From NCBI GenBank assembly GCA_018065065.1, contig JAGHTZ010000081.1:1-34333 (forward strand): a stretch of 34,333 nucleotides of DNA, read 5' to 3'. The translations under genes were made by a program, and so were the position numbers. This stretch comes from Candidatus Equadaptatus faecalis. Its GTDB lineage: Bacteria; Synergistota; Synergistia; Synergistales; Synergistaceae. The notes under the pieces were generated by a model. The model ran no database searches, was not told the origin of the DNA, and saw only the letters and a program-made list of their open reading frames with translations. Of the stretch, positions 1 through 16,080 are shown piece by piece (the first letter of the stretch is position 1; every line of letters starts with the position of its first letter).

Positions 1-530
1 TGCGGCTTCGGAGGAAAATGAACGGTGCTCCCAGTAAGAAGTAATCCGAAGTTTGATGAACACAGAACGAAGAACGTTGGAACTATTGAAACGCGCAATT
101 ATGCTTTTCTAAATTGTTCTTCGTTCGTCGTTCTAAGTTCGTCGTTTGTTTTAACGTACTCGCCCCGAAAGGGCTATGTTTGTTGTACCAAAATTCTGCC
201 GGCGGCTGTCATTTGGCGGCTGCCGGCAAAAGTATTCAAAAAATGGGGGACTGAAATCAGTCCCCCGCTTTTGTATTCTCATACACTACGGCACGGAAAA
301 CATATAACTTTTTTAACAATCTATCGCAAAATAATTGTTTTTTCAGAAAAACAGGTTGCCATTCAATACAGTTTTGCCGTTTTTGTATATGTAGGGGCAG
401 GAAACGTTTATATGCGTCCTGCTTGCGGGCGAACTCCTGAACGTTCGGGGACTTGCGGAAGTCTCAGACTGAAATTTCAAAATGTCAGTCAAACGAACGT
501 TTAACTCCGCGGGGTCAGTCCGCCCCAATA
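1..530. other. Intergenic leader with hairpins, no supported gene
   Basis: I see no credible protein gene here; the open frames are low-complexity and lack ribosome binding sites. It contains an 11-base inverted repeat (GAACGAAGAAC at 65-75 and its complement at 116-126), a stem of TGCCGGC at 197-203 with GCCGGCA at 222-228, the repeat copy at 241-298 (listed separately) and the palindrome CCTGAACGTTCGGG near 437-450. Confidence 0.5.
241..298. repeat. Dispersed hairpin repeat, copy 1
   Basis: A hairpin with arms GGGGGACTGA and TCAGTCCCCC is followed on the plus strand by CGCTTTTGTATTCTCATACACTACGG, here split as CGCTTTTGTATTC and TCATACACTACGG. The same arrangement recurs at 1552-1613 with only a few changes and, more degenerate, at 2648-2697. 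On the minus strand the hairpin is followed by ATTTTTT, so it could also act as a terminator in that direction. Confidence 0.6.
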
Positions 531-693
531 AAAAATAAAAATCGCATTCGCGTTTGCGTAATCCCGTTTTCAGGGCTGCGACAAATCCGCACCTGTTCGA
601 GGTACGACGATTGAAGCGCTGCAAAGCGTTAAACACATGCAGTAGTGGGCACCGCCCGGCTTCAAGTCCACACACGGCTCCCTCTCACAGCCT
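531..693 (-). ncRNA. Candidate structured small RNA (6S-like or novel)
   Basis: On the minus strand a promoter-like pair TTGTTG (726-721) and TACAAT (703-698) is spaced by 17 bases. The predicted start, about 692, falls exactly on the 5' arm of an 8-base-pair closing stem: GGCTGTGA (692-685) with TCGCAGCC (581-574). Inside, TTGAAGC pairs with GCTTCAA (extended by GAC/GTC across a 2-base bulge), and smaller hairpins ACCT/AGGT and GGGC/GCCC can form. Downstream, a CGCA/TGCG hairpin runs into a T-rich tract at about 545-527. The overall shape, with a closing stem, an asymmetric bubble with a small hairpin on its 3' side and an inner stem, recalls 6S RNA, but it is shorter than the usual 180 or so bases and I cannot confirm a family. 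It is not a recognisable SRP RNA, tmRNA, RNase P RNA or tRNA. The 3' end is uncertain. Confidence 0.45.
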
Positions 694-804
694 TGGGATT
701 GTAACAAAAGCAACACAGTGCAACAAAGAAACAAACTTTCAGAAACGAACAAACGGCACACCGTCAAATTTCGGCGGCAAAGCCGTTTGTCCGCGTACCG
801 AAAT

Positions 805-854
805 GCAAAAAACAGAAACCGCCGGAGACGCAACGATCTCCGGCGGTTTCTGTT
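805..854 (-). terminator. Rho-independent terminator of hicAB
   Basis: A perfect 18-base-pair stem (811-828 with 837-854, 8-base loop) is followed on the minus strand by TTTTTTGC. It lies just beyond the end of hicB and fits an intrinsic terminator for the toxin-antitoxin transcript. Confidence 0.85.
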
Positions 855-880
855 AAACTTTACGCAAAAGAGATAACCCG

Positions 881-1219
881 TCAGCGACCAACAACGAACT
901 GCCTGATTGAACTTTCAACCAAACTGTTCAACGAAATTTGCTCCGCCATTGCCGTTATCGCAGCCTGCTTGTGCAGTTCAGGAGAAATACGGACGTTAAA
1001 ACTTCCCTTGTATGCTTTCTCAGGCGCTTTGTTCTGCGCCTCACACAACGACAAATAATCATCTACCGCAGAGTGAAAATCTTTAATCAGACCCTTTGCG
1101 TCCTTTCCCTCATACGAAATCAGCGCGCGAATACCCAGCACCTTGCCGAAAAAAACGGCATCTTCCTGTGAAAATTCCACACTGCCGACATACCCCTTAT
1201 ATTCCATGACGCTGCTCAT
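881..1219 (-). CDS. hicB: HicB-family antitoxin
   Basis: A 112-residue HicB-type antitoxin. The N-terminal half carries the HicB signature (YKGYVGSVEFS...) that folds into a partly degraded RNase-H-like domain and binds the toxin. The C-terminus (GSFNVRISPELHKQAAITA...) is a ribbon-helix-helix DNA-binding segment of the Arc/MetJ type, expected to repress the operon. The start ATG at 1219 has GGAGGG seven bases upstream and overlaps the hicA stop codon as ATGA, so the two genes are translationally coupled with the toxin first, the usual hicAB order. Gene order, domain order and length all agree. The function is inferred from family; antitoxin activity was not shown here. Confidence 0.88.
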   Translation of the reverse strand: MSSVMEYKGYVGSVEFSQEDAVFFGKVLGIRALISYEGKDAKGLIKDFHSAVDDYLSLCEAQNKAPEKAYKGSFNVRISPELHKQAAITAMAEQISLNSLVESSIRQFVVGR

Positions 1220-1470
1220 ATCAAACCCTCCTGCTCTAAAACATCTATCAGCTGTTTCACCTGATACATCAATAATTCCTTTCTCGGGTGCGGTTTATGC
1301 AGCAAAATCGGCGGATGCTGTTCGTTTACGAATATTACACGAGATCCGCTTGTCCTGCCCTTATTTGAACGCGCATAGCCAAAACAGCCAAGCAAAGTTT
1401 CCGCTTCCGCAAAAGTAAAATCCCTCGGCTTCTGCTTCAACCGCTCAACAAGTTTATCCTCCTGCCCCAA
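1216..1470 (-). CDS. hicA: HicA-family mRNA interferase toxin
   Basis: A small HicA toxin of about 84 residues, expected to cleave mRNA until bound by HicB. It belongs to the variant with LLHKPHPRKELLMYQVKQL near the C-terminus, where the classical GSHH motif is replaced by GSRV, so the catalytic histidine seen in textbook HicA is not at its usual place. Start choice: GTG codons at 1482 and 1479 have no room for a ribosome binding site, because the predicted transcription start is about 1488. TTG at 1470 sits eight bases after AGGTGG (1484-1479) and is preferred. Either choice leaves the domain intact. The gene precedes hicB with a 4-base overlap and both share the terminator at 805-854. Confidence 0.82.
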   Translation of the reverse strand: MGQEDKLVERLKQKPRDFTFAEAETLLGCFGYARSNKGRTSGSRVIFVNEQHPPILLHKPHPRKELLMYQVKQLIDVLEQEGLI

Positions 1471-1494
1471 GATAATCACCACCTAACAACATTT

Positions 1495-1523
1495 ATTATA
1501 AACGCTGTTTGCAAATTTGCAAC
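1495..1523 (-). promoter_or_regulatory. hicAB promoter with palindromic operator
   Basis: On the minus strand TTGCAA (1522-1517) and TATAAT (1500-1495) are spaced by 16 bases. The -35 box is part of the perfect 14-base palindrome TTGCAAATTTGCAA at 1509-1522, a natural site for the ribbon-helix-helix domain of HicB. That would give negative autoregulation as in known hicAB operons. The binding assignment is an inference. Confidence 0.6.
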
Positions 1524-1551
1524 CATAATTAGTTACTGCCATTTATACAAA

Positions 1552-1613
1552 AAACAAGCGGGGGGCTGAAATCAATCTCCCGCTTGTGTATTCTCATACG
1601 CTACGGCGCGAAA
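1552..1613. repeat. Dispersed hairpin repeat, copy 2
   Basis: The stem ACAAGCGGG with CCCGCTTGT encloses GGGCTGAAATCAATCT and is followed by GTATTCTCATACGCTACGG. The last 40 or so bases match copy 1 (241-298) closely, although the stem ends differ by paired changes. It lies between hicA and the PDZ gene. Confidence 0.6.
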
Positions 1614-1654
1614 TAGCTTACAAAAGATTTGCAAAAGCGCTGTAATAACCGAAC

Positions 1655-1792
1655 CTATCTGCGGATAACCTCCGTTGCTTTTGTTTCTGTATCAGGATCC
1701 AAAATATTCAAACCTCCGCGTAAAAAACCGTGCATCTGATTGTTGTAAAACGTTGAACCAATTTTATTCGTATAACTGATTCCGTTTGTCAT
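1655..1792 (-). CDS. Possible 45-residue protein or gene remnant
   Basis: A minus-strand frame begins at ATG 1792 and encodes MTNGISYTNKIGSTF..., with a balanced composition ending ...TETKATEVIRR and a TAG stop. The frame is open a few codons upstream of the ATG, back to a stop that overlaps the end of the PDZ gene. No ribosome binding site precedes the ATG, so it may be the tail of a lost gene or non-coding. It lies directly downstream of the PDZ gene on the same strand. I do not recognise it. Confidence 0.22.
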   Translation of the reverse strand: MTNGISYTNKIGSTFYNNQMHGFLRGGLNILDPDTETKATEVIRR

Positions 1793-1818
1793 TTGAATGG
1801 CGAATGTGTATTATAACA

Positions 1819-2523
1819 TTATTTTGTCAGCACGATTATGTTTTTTTTGCCTTCGTGGTCGATAGTGAAAGTTAGAGATTTGCTGTTACCCCATTTGTTG
1901 CTGATGTAGGTTTCAAGTGATTTCGTGTCCATGTTTTCAACGGATATTCCGTCTATTTCAACTATTAAATCACCTGGGAAAATTTTATCTTGTGCGGCAC
2001 TTGCCGCAACTATTTCTGCCACTTTATTGTTTTCGGCAAGTCTTATGCCAAGCGCTTTTTCGCGTTCGTTGCCTGAACCTGGAAGTTGGTTAACTGCTTC
2101 ATTTTTTATGATATTTTTGGGTGTGCCGTCAAGTACAGATTTCACTTCGTTAATTATCGGTATGAGGTGGTCTATTGACCTACGGCGATATGCGCCGTTG
2201 TCTCCTTCTTCTTCGGTGAAAGTCATTTTGACGTTACCGTCTCTTGCAATTGTGTTGCACCTCACAAAGCATTTTCTGCTAGCTACCCAAAATCCGTCGC
2301 CAAAGGCTTTTGTCATGACTATCCGGTAGTCAGATACATCATCAAGGTTAAAGTTTTTTCCTGTGAACACTTCAATGACTGCATCCTGTACCTGTTTGAG
2401 GCTCACATTGTTAACGGTAACGGTGTACATGGATTCGGCGTGTGCTGGCAGTGTGAAGCACAGTATTATCAGCGCTGACCTGATTAGTTTTTTCGTTGTT
2501 CTTGTTAAACTTGTTGATTTCAT
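1819..2523 (-). CDS. Secreted PDZ-domain protein of unknown function
   Basis: A 234-residue protein with a Sec signal peptide (basic start, hydrophobic core around residues 14-25, AHA before a likely cut after residue 29). Residues 33-125 form an unrecognised domain that includes two cysteines (FVRCN and RKCF). Residues 157-233 form a PDZ domain (LGIRLAENNKVAEIVAAS...PGDLIVEIDGISVENM), with the usual GDLI and IDG signatures for binding C-terminal peptides. There is no protease domain, so it is not a DegP or Tsp relative; an envelope adaptor role is possible but unproven. The start ATG at 2523 follows GGGAGG by seven bases. An extended -10 promoter lies upstream. It appears to be a single-gene unit among accessory genes. 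Confidence 0.7.
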   Translation of the reverse strand: MKSTSLTRTTKKLIRSALIILCFTLPAHAESMYTVTVNNVSLKQVQDAVIEVFTGKNFNLDDVSDYRIVMTKAFGDGFWVASRKCFVRCNTIARDGNVKMTFTEEEGDNGAYRRRSIDHLIPIINEVKSVLDGTPKNIIKNEAVNQLPGSGNEREKALGIRLAENNKVAEIVAASAAQDKIFPGDLIVEIDGISVENMDTKSLETYISNKWGNSKSLTFTIDHEGKKNIIVLTK

Positions 2524-2576
2524 TCTGCTACCTCCCTGCGCCTATTTTAGGACATTTTCTATCCTTACACCCTTTA

Positions 2577-2585
2577 ATTATACCA
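2577..2585 (-). promoter_or_regulatory. Extended -10 promoter of the PDZ gene
   Basis: On the minus strand TGGTATAAT (TG one base before TATAAT at 2582-2577) lies about 54 bases upstream of the start codon. No good -35 hexamer is visible, which is usual for extended -10 promoters. Confidence 0.5.
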
Positions 2586-2647
2586 TATATCTGCCCGTAT
2601 GCACCTGTTTCATGTCTATATAAAAAATTTATTTTTTATTTTTTATT

Positions 2648-2697
2648 CGCCAAAACTGTAATCAATTCCCCGATTTTAAATTTTCATACGCTATAAA
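2648..2697. repeat. Dispersed hairpin repeat, degenerate copy 3
   Basis: The stretch CTGTAATCAATTCCCCGATT then TTAAATTTTCATACGCTA aligns with copies 1 and 2 (CTGAAATCA.TCCCCCGCTT...TATTCTCATACGCTA) but has lost the GC-rich left arm. A weaker trace is at 4421-4460. Confidence 0.4.
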
Positions 2698-2790
2698 GTA
2701 CAAGACAAATACACCTATAGACCTTTGATTCGATTCCAATAACTTCGGCTCAAATTCATTGCAGAATACCCTTCTCAAAATACACCACTC

Positions 2791-3285
2791 TCATATACGA
2801 TTTTTGCCGTAAAATATTCTACCCGCCTCTAAATTTTTACGATAACTACAAGTCAGGGAGTACAGGGCATCTGGATGAATACAACGTTTTGCATCACTAC
2901 ATTGTTCATATCTTCCACAACAACCAAATGTAGCACCTGATTCAGTAAGAACTTCCGCGGCTATTTTACAAAACTCATTTGATAAGGATACTACAGCATC
3001 CATATTAGGAAGTTCAATTCTACTCATTTTATCAGTCGTATGCTGAATATTGTAATTATTAAAGTGCGTGTCATATTTTGATTTATATTCAAGCAACACA
3101 TCATTTTTACGTTGTGTAATCTTTACTGCAATCAAACTTTTAGCCTTTACAGCCATATAACCTTTATTTTCTACTGCACATATGGCATCTGAAAGTAAAC
3201 TGCCATTTAATTGTTGCGCAATCGTGCTTTTCAACAAATCAATGCCGCTAATGTTTTCTTCAAACTGTAAAGTCATCTGTTCCAT
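2791..3285 (-). CDS. Cysteine-rich protein paired with exonuclease
   Basis: A 164-residue protein of unknown function. The first 115 residues look like a small mixed alpha/beta domain rich in polar residues. The C-terminal 45 residues are striking: C122, C123, C129, C135 and C146 in the order CCGRYEQCSDAKRC...TC, then SYRKNLEAGRIFYGKNRI. This cysteine spacing suggests a zinc or Fe-S site. The start at 3285 has GGAG eight bases upstream and overlaps the end of the exonuclease gene by 26 bases; longer upstream frames lie fully inside that gene and are rejected. The tight overlap implies one transcript and related function, perhaps a nucleic-acid-binding partner of the nuclease. Both genes are visibly AT-richer than the core genes. 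Confidence 0.6.
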   Translation of the reverse strand: MEQMTLQFEENISGIDLLKSTIAQQLNGSLLSDAICAVENKGYMAVKAKSLIAVKITQRKNDVLLEYKSKYDTHFNNYNIQHTTDKMSRIELPNMDAVVSLSNEFCKIAAEVLTESGATFGCCGRYEQCSDAKRCIHPDALYSLTCSYRKNLEAGRIFYGKNRI

Positions 3286-4282
3286 GTTGTTTACGCTCCA
3301 ATATTTCAAAAAAGGTATCTTCCATATACACAGATGTCCCATTGTTGCGAGCATCTTCAATTTTTTCATCATTTCGACTGTTGCTTCCACACAGCCCAAC
3401 AATTAAAAAATCAGTAGGTGGTTTTTTCCTTATACTTTTTTCACAGACCAACGAGAATCCATATTGGTCTATACGTTTTTTTATATCCTCTTTCCTTCCT
3501 CCTGCAAAATTACCAGTTAAATAATAAGTTTTACCCTGAAGATCTGGGTTCATATTTGACGATAAGCATTTTTCCACAGTTTCTGATATTTGCGGTGTTT
3601 TTTCTACAGACGATGAACGTTTTAAAACATCATTTTCTTTAGTAACGTTATGTATGTTATTATTCGTATTTGAATGTTGTAACTTGCAATGCATCGATTT
3701 AAGAGATGTAATGTCCATGTCCAGCTTTTGTAATCTATTTATCAGAGCTTGGTATATTTTATGTGCATCTTCCGCATCTGGTTCGGCTCTATGCATTTCT
3801 TTTTCTCTAATCCCGAAAAATCTACCTAATGTTTCTACCGTATGATTTTCGACATCATCAGGCTTACGTAAGATTGCTTGTGCTAATTCACACGTATTAA
3901 AATAGCATGGATTAAATTCTATGCCAATGGCTTCTGCCGCTTTTCTTATTTTAGGAATATCAAACAAATTTTGGCCGCTATGCTCTAAAATATAATATCC
4001 CTTAACGAAATCTATAAACTTTGGAAGAAATTCCTCTATACAAGGCGCATCTTGAAGTTCTGAATTGCCAATTCTGTTTATTTTGAATGGTGTGCTAGAT
4101 CTATCTATATCTGTCTTCGGCTTAATCAGACTAGATAAACGCCCAATCTCTGCACCATTGTGGACTTTTATTGCGGCAATTTCAATAATCTCACCTTTTT
4201 GGTTAGTTTCAATATCAATCGCACAATAATCAGTATGTATATCATAAAACGTAACGTTCGTTATGCTATTATTAGAAACCAT
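3260..4282 (-). CDS. DEDDh 3'-5' exonuclease with C-terminal BRCT domain
   Basis: A 340-residue protein. Residues 18-187 are a DnaQ-like DEDDh exonuclease: D23 and E25 (AIDIET), D108 (QNLFDI), H164 and D169 (HRAEPDAED), the complete metal-binding set. A polar linker at 188-246 follows, then a BRCT domain at 247-332 (LQGKTYYLTGNF...TDFLIVG...). Exonuclease-BRCT fusions act in DNA proofreading, repair or trimming; there is no polymerase domain. The start at 4282 is chosen because GAGGTG lies eight bases upstream, while the upstream ATG at 4300 has none. The gene overlaps its cysteine-rich partner downstream. Its AT-rich composition suggests lateral origin. The biochemical role is inferred from motifs; the biological target is unknown. 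Confidence 0.82.
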   Translation of the reverse strand: MVSNNSITNVTFYDIHTDYCAIDIETNQKGEIIEIAAIKVHNGAEIGRLSSLIKPKTDIDRSSTPFKINRIGNSELQDAPCIEEFLPKFIDFVKGYYILEHSGQNLFDIPKIRKAAEAIGIEFNPCYFNTCELAQAILRKPDDVENHTVETLGRFFGIREKEMHRAEPDAEDAHKIYQALINRLQKLDMDITSLKSMHCKLQHSNTNNNIHNVTKENDVLKRSSSVEKTPQISETVEKCLSSNMNPDLQGKTYYLTGNFAGGRKEDIKKRIDQYGFSLVCEKSIRKKPPTDFLIVGLCGSNSRNDEKIEDARNNGTSVYMEDTFFEILERKQHGTDDFTV

Positions 4283-4301
4283 ATTCTCAACACCTCGCAT
4301 A

Positions 4302-4329
4302 TCTATAGAGATTTTGCTGCATCTATCAA
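4302..4329 (-). promoter_or_regulatory. Possible promoter of exonuclease operon
   Basis: On the minus strand TTGATA (4329-4324) and TATAGA (4307-4302) are spaced by 16 bases. A start near 4295 would leave a very short leader before the ribosome binding site, so the call is tentative. Confidence 0.3.
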
Positions 4330-4471
4330 TAACATTCTTTTAGGTTAGCTAAAGATTTTTTCTCCGTCCGACTAGACAATCTCTTTCAACACTACCATTA
4401 CAAACTTCTTCGCCCTACGCTATATATTCTCTCACAATTCCCCGATTTTGTCTCGTCATTTTACAAATTGC

Positions 4472-4501
4472 AAAAAAAACCAGGCTGAAATTTGTTCAGC
4501 C
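4472..4501 (-). terminator. Terminator of the BRO-like gene
   Basis: On the minus strand GGCTGAA and TTCAGCC form a stem (4501-4495 with 4489-4483), then TGGTTTTTTTTG follows. It begins a few bases after the stop codon. Its sequence is nearly repeated at 5490-5523. Confidence 0.75.
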
Positions 4502-4509
4502 CGTTGGGA

Positions 4510-5361
4510 TTATTTCAGTTTTCCAGTTGTTTCAATTACGTTTGTGATAAGTTCTTTGAAGTCTGCTGCGTTCTGTTGTGTCAGTACAGCTTTGCCCGTG
4601 CGTTTTTCAAGTGCCTGACGCGCTATTCCCGCAACTTCCCCTCCCTGTTGCGCAGCTTTTACGCTTTCTTCAAAGTTTTCAGGCTTTTCCGCCGCCGAGA
4701 TGTCTTTTGTGGAGGTTTCGGCAAGCAGATTGAGTATCAGTTCTGTCGTTGTCATGTTGTCGCGCAGGTTTTCTTTTTTCAGTCCTTTGAAGTTTTTGTA
4801 CTGCCTCGTTGTCATTCCCGACCACGCTTTGCTGATTTCGTCCGTAAGTATCGCGTATTCTGCTCCCTGTTTTATGCCTCTTTCGCGCCATTCCGCGGTA
4901 AGCTCGTTGCGGACTCGTATCGCAAGCACGCGTTGGTGTATCCAGTCTTCGCTGTATCCTTTTTTGAGATATGTTTCAAGCGCTCTGTCTATTGCAATTT
5001 CAGGGTCTATTGTTTCGTCTATTCTTTCTTTGCCGACCTCTGCAAGCCATAATTTGAACGGTTCTGCTTTTTTTGAGGGTATTGACTGAATAATACGCAA
5101 AAGCTGTTTGGTGTCCGCAACGTCTGTAAGGCGCATTTTTCCGTCAGGTGCCATCATTTTGAAAGCGTGACAATTTGTCACGGTTTCATTTCCTTCCCGT
5201 TTTAGACGTTGTTTAAGTTTTCTCCAGTATGCCGCGGAATCTGCGCTTTCTGTTAGCACGCTGACCACGTCAACTATGGAGAAGTACCATTCTTCTTTGT
5301 TTTCGTCCCATGCAGTTCTGATTTTTCTGTTTTCAAAAAGCTGTACCGTGTTTTTCGTCAT
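4510..5361 (-). CDS. BRO-N family antirepressor-like protein
   Basis: A 283-residue protein. Residues 5-110 match the Bro-N fold of phage antirepressors and baculovirus BRO proteins (VQLFENRKIRTAWDE..., WYFSIVDVVSVLT, then MRLTDVADTKQLLRIIQSI). The C-terminal half (SKAWSGMTTRQYKNFKGLKKENLRDNMT...) resembles the C-terminal part of DinD encoded at 15067-15921. Such proteins bind DNA or repressors and are usually carried by phages or mobile elements, but this copy stands alone with its own promoter and terminator. The start at 5361 has AAGGAG eight bases upstream. A 31-base perfect palindrome overlaps its promoter. Its exact role, whether antirepressor, stress response or defence, cannot be told from sequence. 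Confidence 0.75.
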   Translation of the reverse strand: MTKNTVQLFENRKIRTAWDENKEEWYFSIVDVVSVLTESADSAAYWRKLKQRLKREGNETVTNCHAFKMMAPDGKMRLTDVADTKQLLRIIQSIPSKKAEPFKLWLAEVGKERIDETIDPEIAIDRALETYLKKGYSEDWIHQRVLAIRVRNELTAEWRERGIKQGAEYAILTDEISKAWSGMTTRQYKNFKGLKKENLRDNMTTTELILNLLAETSTKDISAAEKPENFEESVKAAQQGGEVAGIARQALEKRTGKAVLTQQNAADFKELITNVIETTGKLK

Positions 5362-5407
5362 TGCAGTATCTCCTTTGCAGTTCGGCTGCTTCGTTTCTTT
5401 CGTTTAT

Positions 5408-5455
5408 ATTATCGCAGTTCAAGCAAAAAATGTCATTTTGAAAATGACATTTTTT
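5408..5455 (-). promoter_or_regulatory. BRO-like gene promoter with 31-base palindrome
   Basis: A perfect inverted repeat with 15-base arms around a single G occupies 5425-5455; its core is TGTCATTTTGAAAATGACA. On the minus strand ATGACA (5436-5431) and GATAAT (5413-5408) are spaced by 17 bases, so the palindrome covers the -35 box. It could be an operator for the gene's own product or for another repressor. Confidence 0.55.
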
Positions 5456-5489
5456 GAAAATTTTGTGGTATGCTGCCCAGCCCCAGCAC

Positions 5490-5523
5490 AAAAAAACGGG
5501 CTGAAATTGTCATTCAGCCCGTT
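5490..5523 (-). terminator. Terminator downstream of the MATE gene
   Basis: An 11-base-pair stem (AACGGGCTGAA 5495-5505 with TTCAGCCCGTT 5513-5523) is followed on the minus strand by TTTTTTTG. A second hairpin, GGTGGCA with TGCCGCC near 5550-5566, lies between it and the stop codon. The element is nearly identical to the terminator at 4472-4501. Confidence 0.75.
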
Positions 5524-5592
5524 GGATTTTATTGGGTAATTTCAGCCGGTGGCATTTTGCCGCCAACTCATTATTTGTCATGCGCTTTCAAA

Positions 5593-15066: not shown

Positions 15067-15921
15067 CTATTCGTCCAGCATAAGCTCTTCCGGATGCTCC
15101 GAAAGTTTTTCTATTCTTTCCCTTTCTATTTCGCTGATGGTTTTCTTAGGAACACTCATGTTTTCGGGCATTGTACCGCCAACCTTTTCTATCGCAGCGC
15201 GCACCTCTTTGCCGACAATATAATGTATCTCGTTCGCCAGCTGCAAATCCGACACGTTTTCCTTTTTCAGCTTCTCTTCCGTCTGCGTTATGCGGAAAAG
15301 ATTTGCCGCAAGCTCGGCGCTTTCCATGAAATCAAGGATTTTTTCGTCCTCTTTCAGTCCTTTTTTCTCATGTATCTGGTCAACGGTCATGCCGCCGTAA
15401 AGCCCCATGTATCCTGAGTTCTGGAATATTTTGTAGTCGTCTCCGGAAAGAACTCCCGCCTTGTGTGCGGCTTCCGCAAGCATCCTGTTCCAGACGCGTA
15501 TATCGCCGCGCACTGCGAGCCTCTTTTTGTCCTCGTCCAGCTGGTTAAAGATTTCGGCAACCTCCGTGCGGCGCGTCTGAATGGCAAAATAGGTCTGTCC
15601 GCAGGCAATAACTTCCTTTTTCGGGTCGCCGTTCTGGACGATAAGATAACAGGCGTAGCGAGACAGCTCGTAATCGTTGATTTCCTTAGTTGCCACGCCG
15701 GTTTTTACAATTTTGTTGACCTCAACAAAATTGTCGGAAAGCGGGCTTTTGCTGTTTATGCAGGCTATCATGGCACGGTCAATAACCTTGGAAAAATTGC
15801 GCCATTCCTTATATTCAAGCGCTGCGGAAAGCTCGCGCGCCGACCAGAATTCGCTCCCGTCTTCCCTTGTATGTTTTATTCCGTCAAAGGTGACGTATTC
15901 TTTTGCCTGAAGATTTGCCAT
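15067..15921 (-). CDS. dinD: DNA-damage-inducible protein D (DinD)
   Basis: A 284-residue DinD homologue. The N-terminal BRO-N-like part (EYVTFDGIKHTREDGSEFWSAREL...) is followed by the typical DYELSRYACYLIVQNGDP motif and IACGQTYFAIQTRRTE, then a conserved C-terminal half (SGYMGLYGGMTVDQIHEKKGL...). In E. coli DinD is SOS-induced and inhibits RecA filament activities; whether that applies here is unknown. GGGGGTG lies six bases upstream of the ATG at 15921; longer frames include a cysteine-rich non-conserved stretch and are rejected. I see no clear LexA box, but palindromes lie upstream. Its C-terminal module resembles that of the BRO-like protein at 4510-5361. It stands between unrelated genes. 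Confidence 0.88.
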   Translation of the reverse strand: MANLQAKEYVTFDGIKHTREDGSEFWSARELSAALEYKEWRNFSKVIDRAMIACINSKSPLSDNFVEVNKIVKTGVATKEINDYELSRYACYLIVQNGDPKKEVIACGQTYFAIQTRRTEVAEIFNQLDEDKKRLAVRGDIRVWNRMLAEAAHKAGVLSGDDYKIFQNSGYMGLYGGMTVDQIHEKKGLKEDEKILDFMESAELAANLFRITQTEEKLKKENVSDLQLANEIHYIVGKEVRAAIEKVGGTMPENMSVPKKTISEIERERIEKLSEHPEELMLDE

Positions 15922-15949
15922 AAACACACCCCCGAATCTTTTCACGGAC

Positions 15950-15955
15950 ATTATA
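15950..15955 (-). promoter_or_regulatory. -10 box of dinD
   Basis: TATAAT on the minus strand (15955-15950), 28 bases upstream of the start codon. The -35 region is poor (GTTTTT), which would suit a regulated promoter. Confidence 0.45.
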
Positions 15956-16057
15956 CAACATATCGGGGCAGGAAAAACAGCAGGATATTCAATGCAAAAG
16001 CAGAGGCAAAATGCAAAACAGTTTTTTCTCCAATATATACATTTCATTGGATCTATA

Positions 16058-16080
16058 ATCATTTGGGCAGTTTATATATA
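16058..16080. repeat. TTGGGCAGTTT-TATA motif, copy B
   Basis: ATTTGGGCAGTTTATATATA, upstream of dinD; matches copies A (13771-13792) and C (16275-16295). Confidence 0.4.

Follow-up and report, generated by a model that had tools for sequence, protein, structure and literature searches.

Integron cassettes carry an accessory gene followed by attC, a conserved foldable site, and the HEARO and omega RNAs of IscB-TnpB elements are folded non-coding RNAs that belong to mobile elements but can also be encountered without the protein. The element described here resembles the former in that four of five copies stand, as a conserved foldable site, behind an accessory gene of the same orientation, although it is much longer and is dispersed over different contigs. 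With HEARO and omega RNAs it shares the character of a structured, non-coding, mobile-element-type sequence without its protein; however, it has no HEARO match, and the TnpB zinc-ribbon (PF07282) is absent from both genomes of the genus, so that a TnpB partner was rejected. The nearest described analogue in behaviour is provided by the BOX, RUP and SPRITE repeats of pneumococci, small interspersed repeats that are found almost exclusively in a few related species, have extensive secondary structure and have been interpreted as parasitic elements that proliferated extensively and of which some are expressed (PMC3049150). The present element is likewise a structured small interspersed repeat of narrow range, but it differs in having about four copies, a branched 355-nt fold and a position beside accessory genes, and no kinship is claimed.

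The window, that is the whole stretch of 34,333 nucleotides that was analysed, is the entire contig C81 of a 1.6-Mb genome in 100 contigs (G000), and the comparison within the genus rests on this genome and that of a sister species (G001), both fragmented assemblies. A preliminary description of this DNA had placed a candidate structured small RNA at 531-693 of the minus strand. The features described are present in the sequence, but the span is too short, as conservation extends from 699 to about 345 (Table 1). By DNA search, three further copies were found in G000, giving four full copies with that of the window, while G001 holds one full copy and three partial ones. The copies share on average 91% pairwise identity over the 5' domain, 93% over the following 45 nt, in which the T-tract lies, and 84% over the 3' domain; outside the element the figure drops to 65% for 45 nt on the upstream side and to 58% for 80 nt on the downstream side. 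Judging from sequence comparison, we propose, with about an even chance of being right, that 699-345 of the minus strand is a genus-specific, non-autonomous, non-coding structured interspersed repeat that lies at the ends of accessory cassettes and is moved or recombined with them.

Table 1. Coordinates of the conserved element and its surroundings in the window.
Feature	Position	Strand	Remarks
Whole conserved element, ~355 nt	345..699	(-)	5' domain, T-rich spacer and 3' domain; full-length in G000 C29, C64, C15 and G001 C13; fragments in G001 C151, C155, C5
5' domain	561..699	(-)	Ends are invariant ATCCC (699-695) and GGGAT (565-561); holds the structure described earlier; mean column identity 94%, 5 copies
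Closing stem, 5' arm	688..692	(-)	Pairs with 574-578; 2/5 pairs doubly compensatory, G-C to C-G and U-A to C-G
Closing stem, 3' arm	574..578	(-)	Same compensatory pairs as arm 688..692
Hairpin GUACCU-CGAAC-AGGUGC	589..605	(-)	Invariant in all full copies; also in G001 C5 fragment
T-tract preceded by a weak conserved hairpin, possible inter-domain terminator	529..558	(-)	GCGATTTTT invariant in 5/5 full copies; terminator scan gives no score
3' domain, long nested helix with three hairpins	345..525	(-)	Covarying pairs in helices 10, 12, 14; 84% mean identity
Promoter-like site TTGTTG-N17-TACAAT, extended -10 TGTTACAAT	698..726	(-)	8/12, common by chance; -10 in 3/5 copies
Large upstream hairpin, 13-bp outer arms ACAAACGGC...GCCGTTTGT	745..795	(-)	In window, C29, C64, G001 C13; unrelated hairpin in C15
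Strong terminator-like hairpin, downstream of hicB	811..854	(-)	Parts hicAB from the element
HicB antitoxin gene	881..1219	(-)	PF05534, E 2e-20
HicA toxin gene	1216..1482	(-)	PF07927, E 6e-8
Terminator-like repeat, far side of element	233..298		Second copy 1544-1613; pair flanks hicAB and element

The 8-base-pair stem of the preliminary description is borne out, with GGCUGUGA (692-685) pairing with UCGCAGCC (581-574) on the minus strand and two pairs changing in step between copies, and the nested helices inside it are present in the sequence. Its broader claim of a structured small RNA stands in part: all five full copies retain the fold, some of their pairs having changed on both sides, but the evidence from single sequences is weak, the 163-nt window fold having z = -1.37 with 17 of 200 shuffles folding equally well, and the five full copies giving z values of -1.35, -1.52, +0.35 (C64), +0.53 (C15) and -0.91. 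When relatives were aligned and checked for covariation, as had been suggested earlier, a 106-pair structure on the five full copies had 96% of cells paired, and five pairs were found to be double-changed, two in the closing stem and three in the 3' domain (A2 columns 189/265, 212/233 and 282/303), with the C151 fragment adding one more. The covariation score was matched by 1 of 500 shuffles and fell to half or less when partners were slid, whereas the number of double-changed pairs alone was equalled in 26 of 500 shuffles and is less striking; among five related sequences, the two double changes of the closing stem may represent one event. Variation is half as frequent in paired columns as in unpaired ones (33 of 212 versus 46 of 146; Fisher p = 4e-4), and this, together with the double compensatory changes, indicates that the fold is probably under selection. 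G-U cells outnumber A-C cells by 56 to 8 overall, but by only about 13 to 7 among varying pairs in a hand count, and G-U tolerance was thus not relied on as proof of strand.

The transcription signals proposed earlier are present as motifs, but they carry less weight than had been given to them. The promoter has its TTGTTG (726-721), 17-nt spacer and TACAAT (703-698), yet at 8/12 it belongs to a chance-level class, of which there are about 12 per kb and 37 on this strand of 1-3000 against a shuffled mean of 31.5, and a stricter scan omits the site. The extended -10 is kept in the window, C29 and C64 and lost in C15 and G001 C13, and no conservation of the -35 was seen across the five full copies. 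A T-tract is present at about 541-529, but the hairpin preceding it is weak and receives no score in the terminator scan. Hence the agreement of promoter, closing stem, nested helices and T-rich terminator is not more than expected by chance from this sequence alone, given the fold z and the 8/12 promoter. A large hairpin lies about 34-46 nt ahead of ATCCC in all five copies, four of these hairpins being related and that of C15 unrelated, and terminator-like hairpins stand between the upstream gene and the element in the window, G001 C13 and C64. The 5' domain and T-tract form one open frame in four of the five copies, with a stop at the first codon in G001 C13. A protein-coding reading was rejected on the spread of variable sites over codon positions (7/9/6), which has no codon pattern, and on the lack of any Pfam or PHROGs match to this frame.

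The full copies lie in a recurring type of neighbourhood. That of the window follows hicAB; that of C29 follows a FokI-type restriction gene accompanied by two D12 methylases; that of C64 has an AAA/LlaJI McrBC-like pair ahead of it and a Gp49/HigB-like gene behind it; that of C15 has a NYN nuclease (HEC-09-like) on one side and, on the other, two HigBA-like pairs plus an integrase; and that of G001 C13 follows a PLD-domain protein weakly like DrmC. All five thus adjoin accessory (defence, toxin-antitoxin or nuclease) genes, which is striking but comes as a count without a genome-wide background rate or p-value. Four of the five have an upstream gene that shares the element's strand and stops a short way ahead of it, while the gene upstream of the C15 copy faces the opposite way. 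The partial copy on G001 C155 (L073) reaches the contig edge with its 3' end, and a tmRNA with an adjacent integrase lies about 4.7 kb away; positions 1-5115 there appear to be a small integrative element with its integrase beside the tmRNA, edged by the partial copy.

Several other repeats and genes were seen in the same DNA. The interspersed terminator-like repeat AAGCGGGGGACTGAAATCAGTCCCCCGCTT...TATTCTCATACACTACGG of Table 1 has more matches in C29, C64, G001 C13, C62 and C43. At the contig edge, positions 1-52 of the window hold the 3' end of a second repeat, of which 52 bp are identical in several G001 contigs (L070:340-545, L069:1350-1551). Its frame GLSSYTRGLCDQGCGQGKQEP... and the abrupt 3' end, beyond which the sequence varies, resemble the tail of a TnpB gene with its omega RNA; this second repeat has no Rfam match, and both genus genomes lack a PF07282 gene. 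Another repeat, with many G001 matches, lies at 5424-5546, close to position 5573, from which synteny with G001 is restored, and two genes with BRO-N domains, frequent in phage-related DNA, occupy 4510-5361 and 15067-16062.

The positions of the copies differ between the two species. No orthologous copy common to both was found among the window, C64, G001 C13 and C151 sites, which were the ones compared. The G001 C13 copy lies at the edge, 65 bp from the right junction, of a 6.7-kb island (L012:948-7651) that the syntenic G000 C14 site lacks; the partial copy of G001 C151 sits in about 490 bp inserted after tRNA-Leu(gag), and G000 C54 has no such insertion. Apart from repeats, positions 1-5572 of the window have no syntenic G001 match, the backbone match starting at 5573, and the same holds for C64 beyond L010:15708 (right end), where G001 reaches a contig edge. 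These empty-site differences are larger than the element or mosaic with it, and no precise single-element insertion was seen. No partner transposase was identified, the G001 C13 island has no terminal repeats of at least 25 nt, and neither terminal inverted repeats nor clear target-site duplications were seen at the sites examined; transposition, cassette recombination or carriage within islands may each have been the route of movement.

The range of the element is narrow. A covariance model of the 5' domain (R1) matched in 2 of 185 Synergistota genomes, both of one genus, and had no match beyond it among 52 family genomes or 185 phylum genomes, with the reservation that searches across more than 40 genomes ran with stricter filters and weak relatives may have escaped. 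Plasmids and phages gave no match and viral contigs a single one, a chance 20-mer in an unrelated phage, on which grounds a phage or plasmid origin was rejected.

The preliminary description had likened the locus to a divergent 6S RNA, with which it shares size class and a closing stem joining the two ends and, superficially, the layout. The search with the Rfam 6S model (RF00013) that it suggested gives no match, either at the gathering threshold or up to E = 10, although the same model detects 6S RNA in 26 of 52 family genomes and 12 of 21 genera, never at this element. 6S RNA is one housekeeping locus at a conserved position, whereas the element has four copies per genome at non-conserved sites in accessory DNA. 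The only 6S candidate of G000 is C1:7333-7514 (L015), which scores 27.8 bits against an Rfam cut-off of 46.4 and lies directly before rarA, the start of which also adjoins 6 of 12 other family 6S loci examined; it is probably the 6S RNA of this genome, and it may be worth refining the 6S model for Synergistota. Given this separate candidate and the lack of an RF00013 match, the element is very unlikely to be the 6S RNA of the genus, and we leave that reading next to no probability. Other Rfam families were rejected as well, with no match at gathering score and only weak, mutually inconsistent ones below threshold. The alternative suggestion of a new RNA class is possible but understates what is found, an element in several copies whose place within accessory DNA shifts, as would not be the case for a single-copy housekeeping small RNA.

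The proposal of a mobile structured repeat draws on what is otherwise used to recognise small interspersed repeats, namely several intergenic non-coding copies, restriction to close relatives and a conserved secondary structure, and in addition on the non-conserved positions, the empty sites in the sister species and the compensatory changes of the fold. In this reading the repeat sits at the ends of cassettes in restriction-modification, toxin-antitoxin, nuclease and integrase neighbourhoods, and we infer that its fold, as RNA or single-stranded DNA, would be recognised by a trans-acting enzyme of the host or of a mobile element that copies or joins the repeat. The element would be transcribed from the minus strand at least sometimes, its fold would be kept because it is needed for the spread of the element, and each copy would be largely dispensable, as the truncated copies of the sister genome suggest. 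Low copy number speaks against this proposal, as do the failure to see insertion hallmarks or a partner transposase and the small basis of two fragmented genomes, and the invariant hairpin and the extended -10 in three copies fit a functional small RNA as well. A bolder version, which we regard as improbable, would make the element a new defence-linked class of structured RNA, in which each copy yields a folded RNA that acts in trans to move or regulate accessory cassettes of defence and toxin genes, perhaps as the target of a recombinase or nuclease that copies or joins cassettes.

The main rival to a mobile repeat is a functional multicopy family of trans-acting small RNAs (about 355 nt at full length, or about 160 nt if ending at the T-tract) that would have a promoter of its own and would regulate defence or toxin genes or act on incoming mobile DNA. 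We consider it unlikely, if still a serious contender: the compensated fold, the contrast between the 5' domain with its T-tract and the diverged flanks, the extended -10 in three copies, the association of all full copies with defence, toxin-antitoxin or nuclease genes and the strong terminator after hicB, which sets the element apart as a separate unit, are all consistent with it, whereas the lack of an orthologous copy found common to two species, the partial state of three of the four G001 copies (a contig edge truncates one), the loss of the -10 in C15 and G001 C13, which leaves the promoter conserved in only some copies, and the absence of thermodynamic support in C64 and C15 argue against it. 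The same-strand gene ending shortly before the element in four of five full copies would also suit a cis-acting structured 3' region or insulator that protects or terminates transcripts of the upstream accessory operons; this we find rather doubtful, as a terminator-like hairpin already intervenes in the window, G001 C13 and C64, and the adjacent upstream gene of C15 is oppositely oriented. A chance fold in a decaying repeat, with copies that are dead sequence and structure without function, would explain why single sequences fold no better than shuffles and why 26 of 500 shuffles equal the number of double-changed pairs. It is, however, hard to reconcile with the lower variability of paired columns, with a covariation score that is so rarely matched and is destroyed by sliding partners, and with the strong contrast between core and flank conservation, and we assign it a low probability.

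Conserved folding alone does not make a small RNA gene. At minimum, the present analysis corrects the 6S reading of this locus and indicates the probable 6S locus of the genome. If the element is a functional RNA, it represents a family that is absent from Rfam, and if its fold serves as an RNA or single-stranded DNA signal by which defence and toxin cassettes are moved, it would amount to a simple means, other than integrons, by which accessory islands are put together in a phylum that has received little study.
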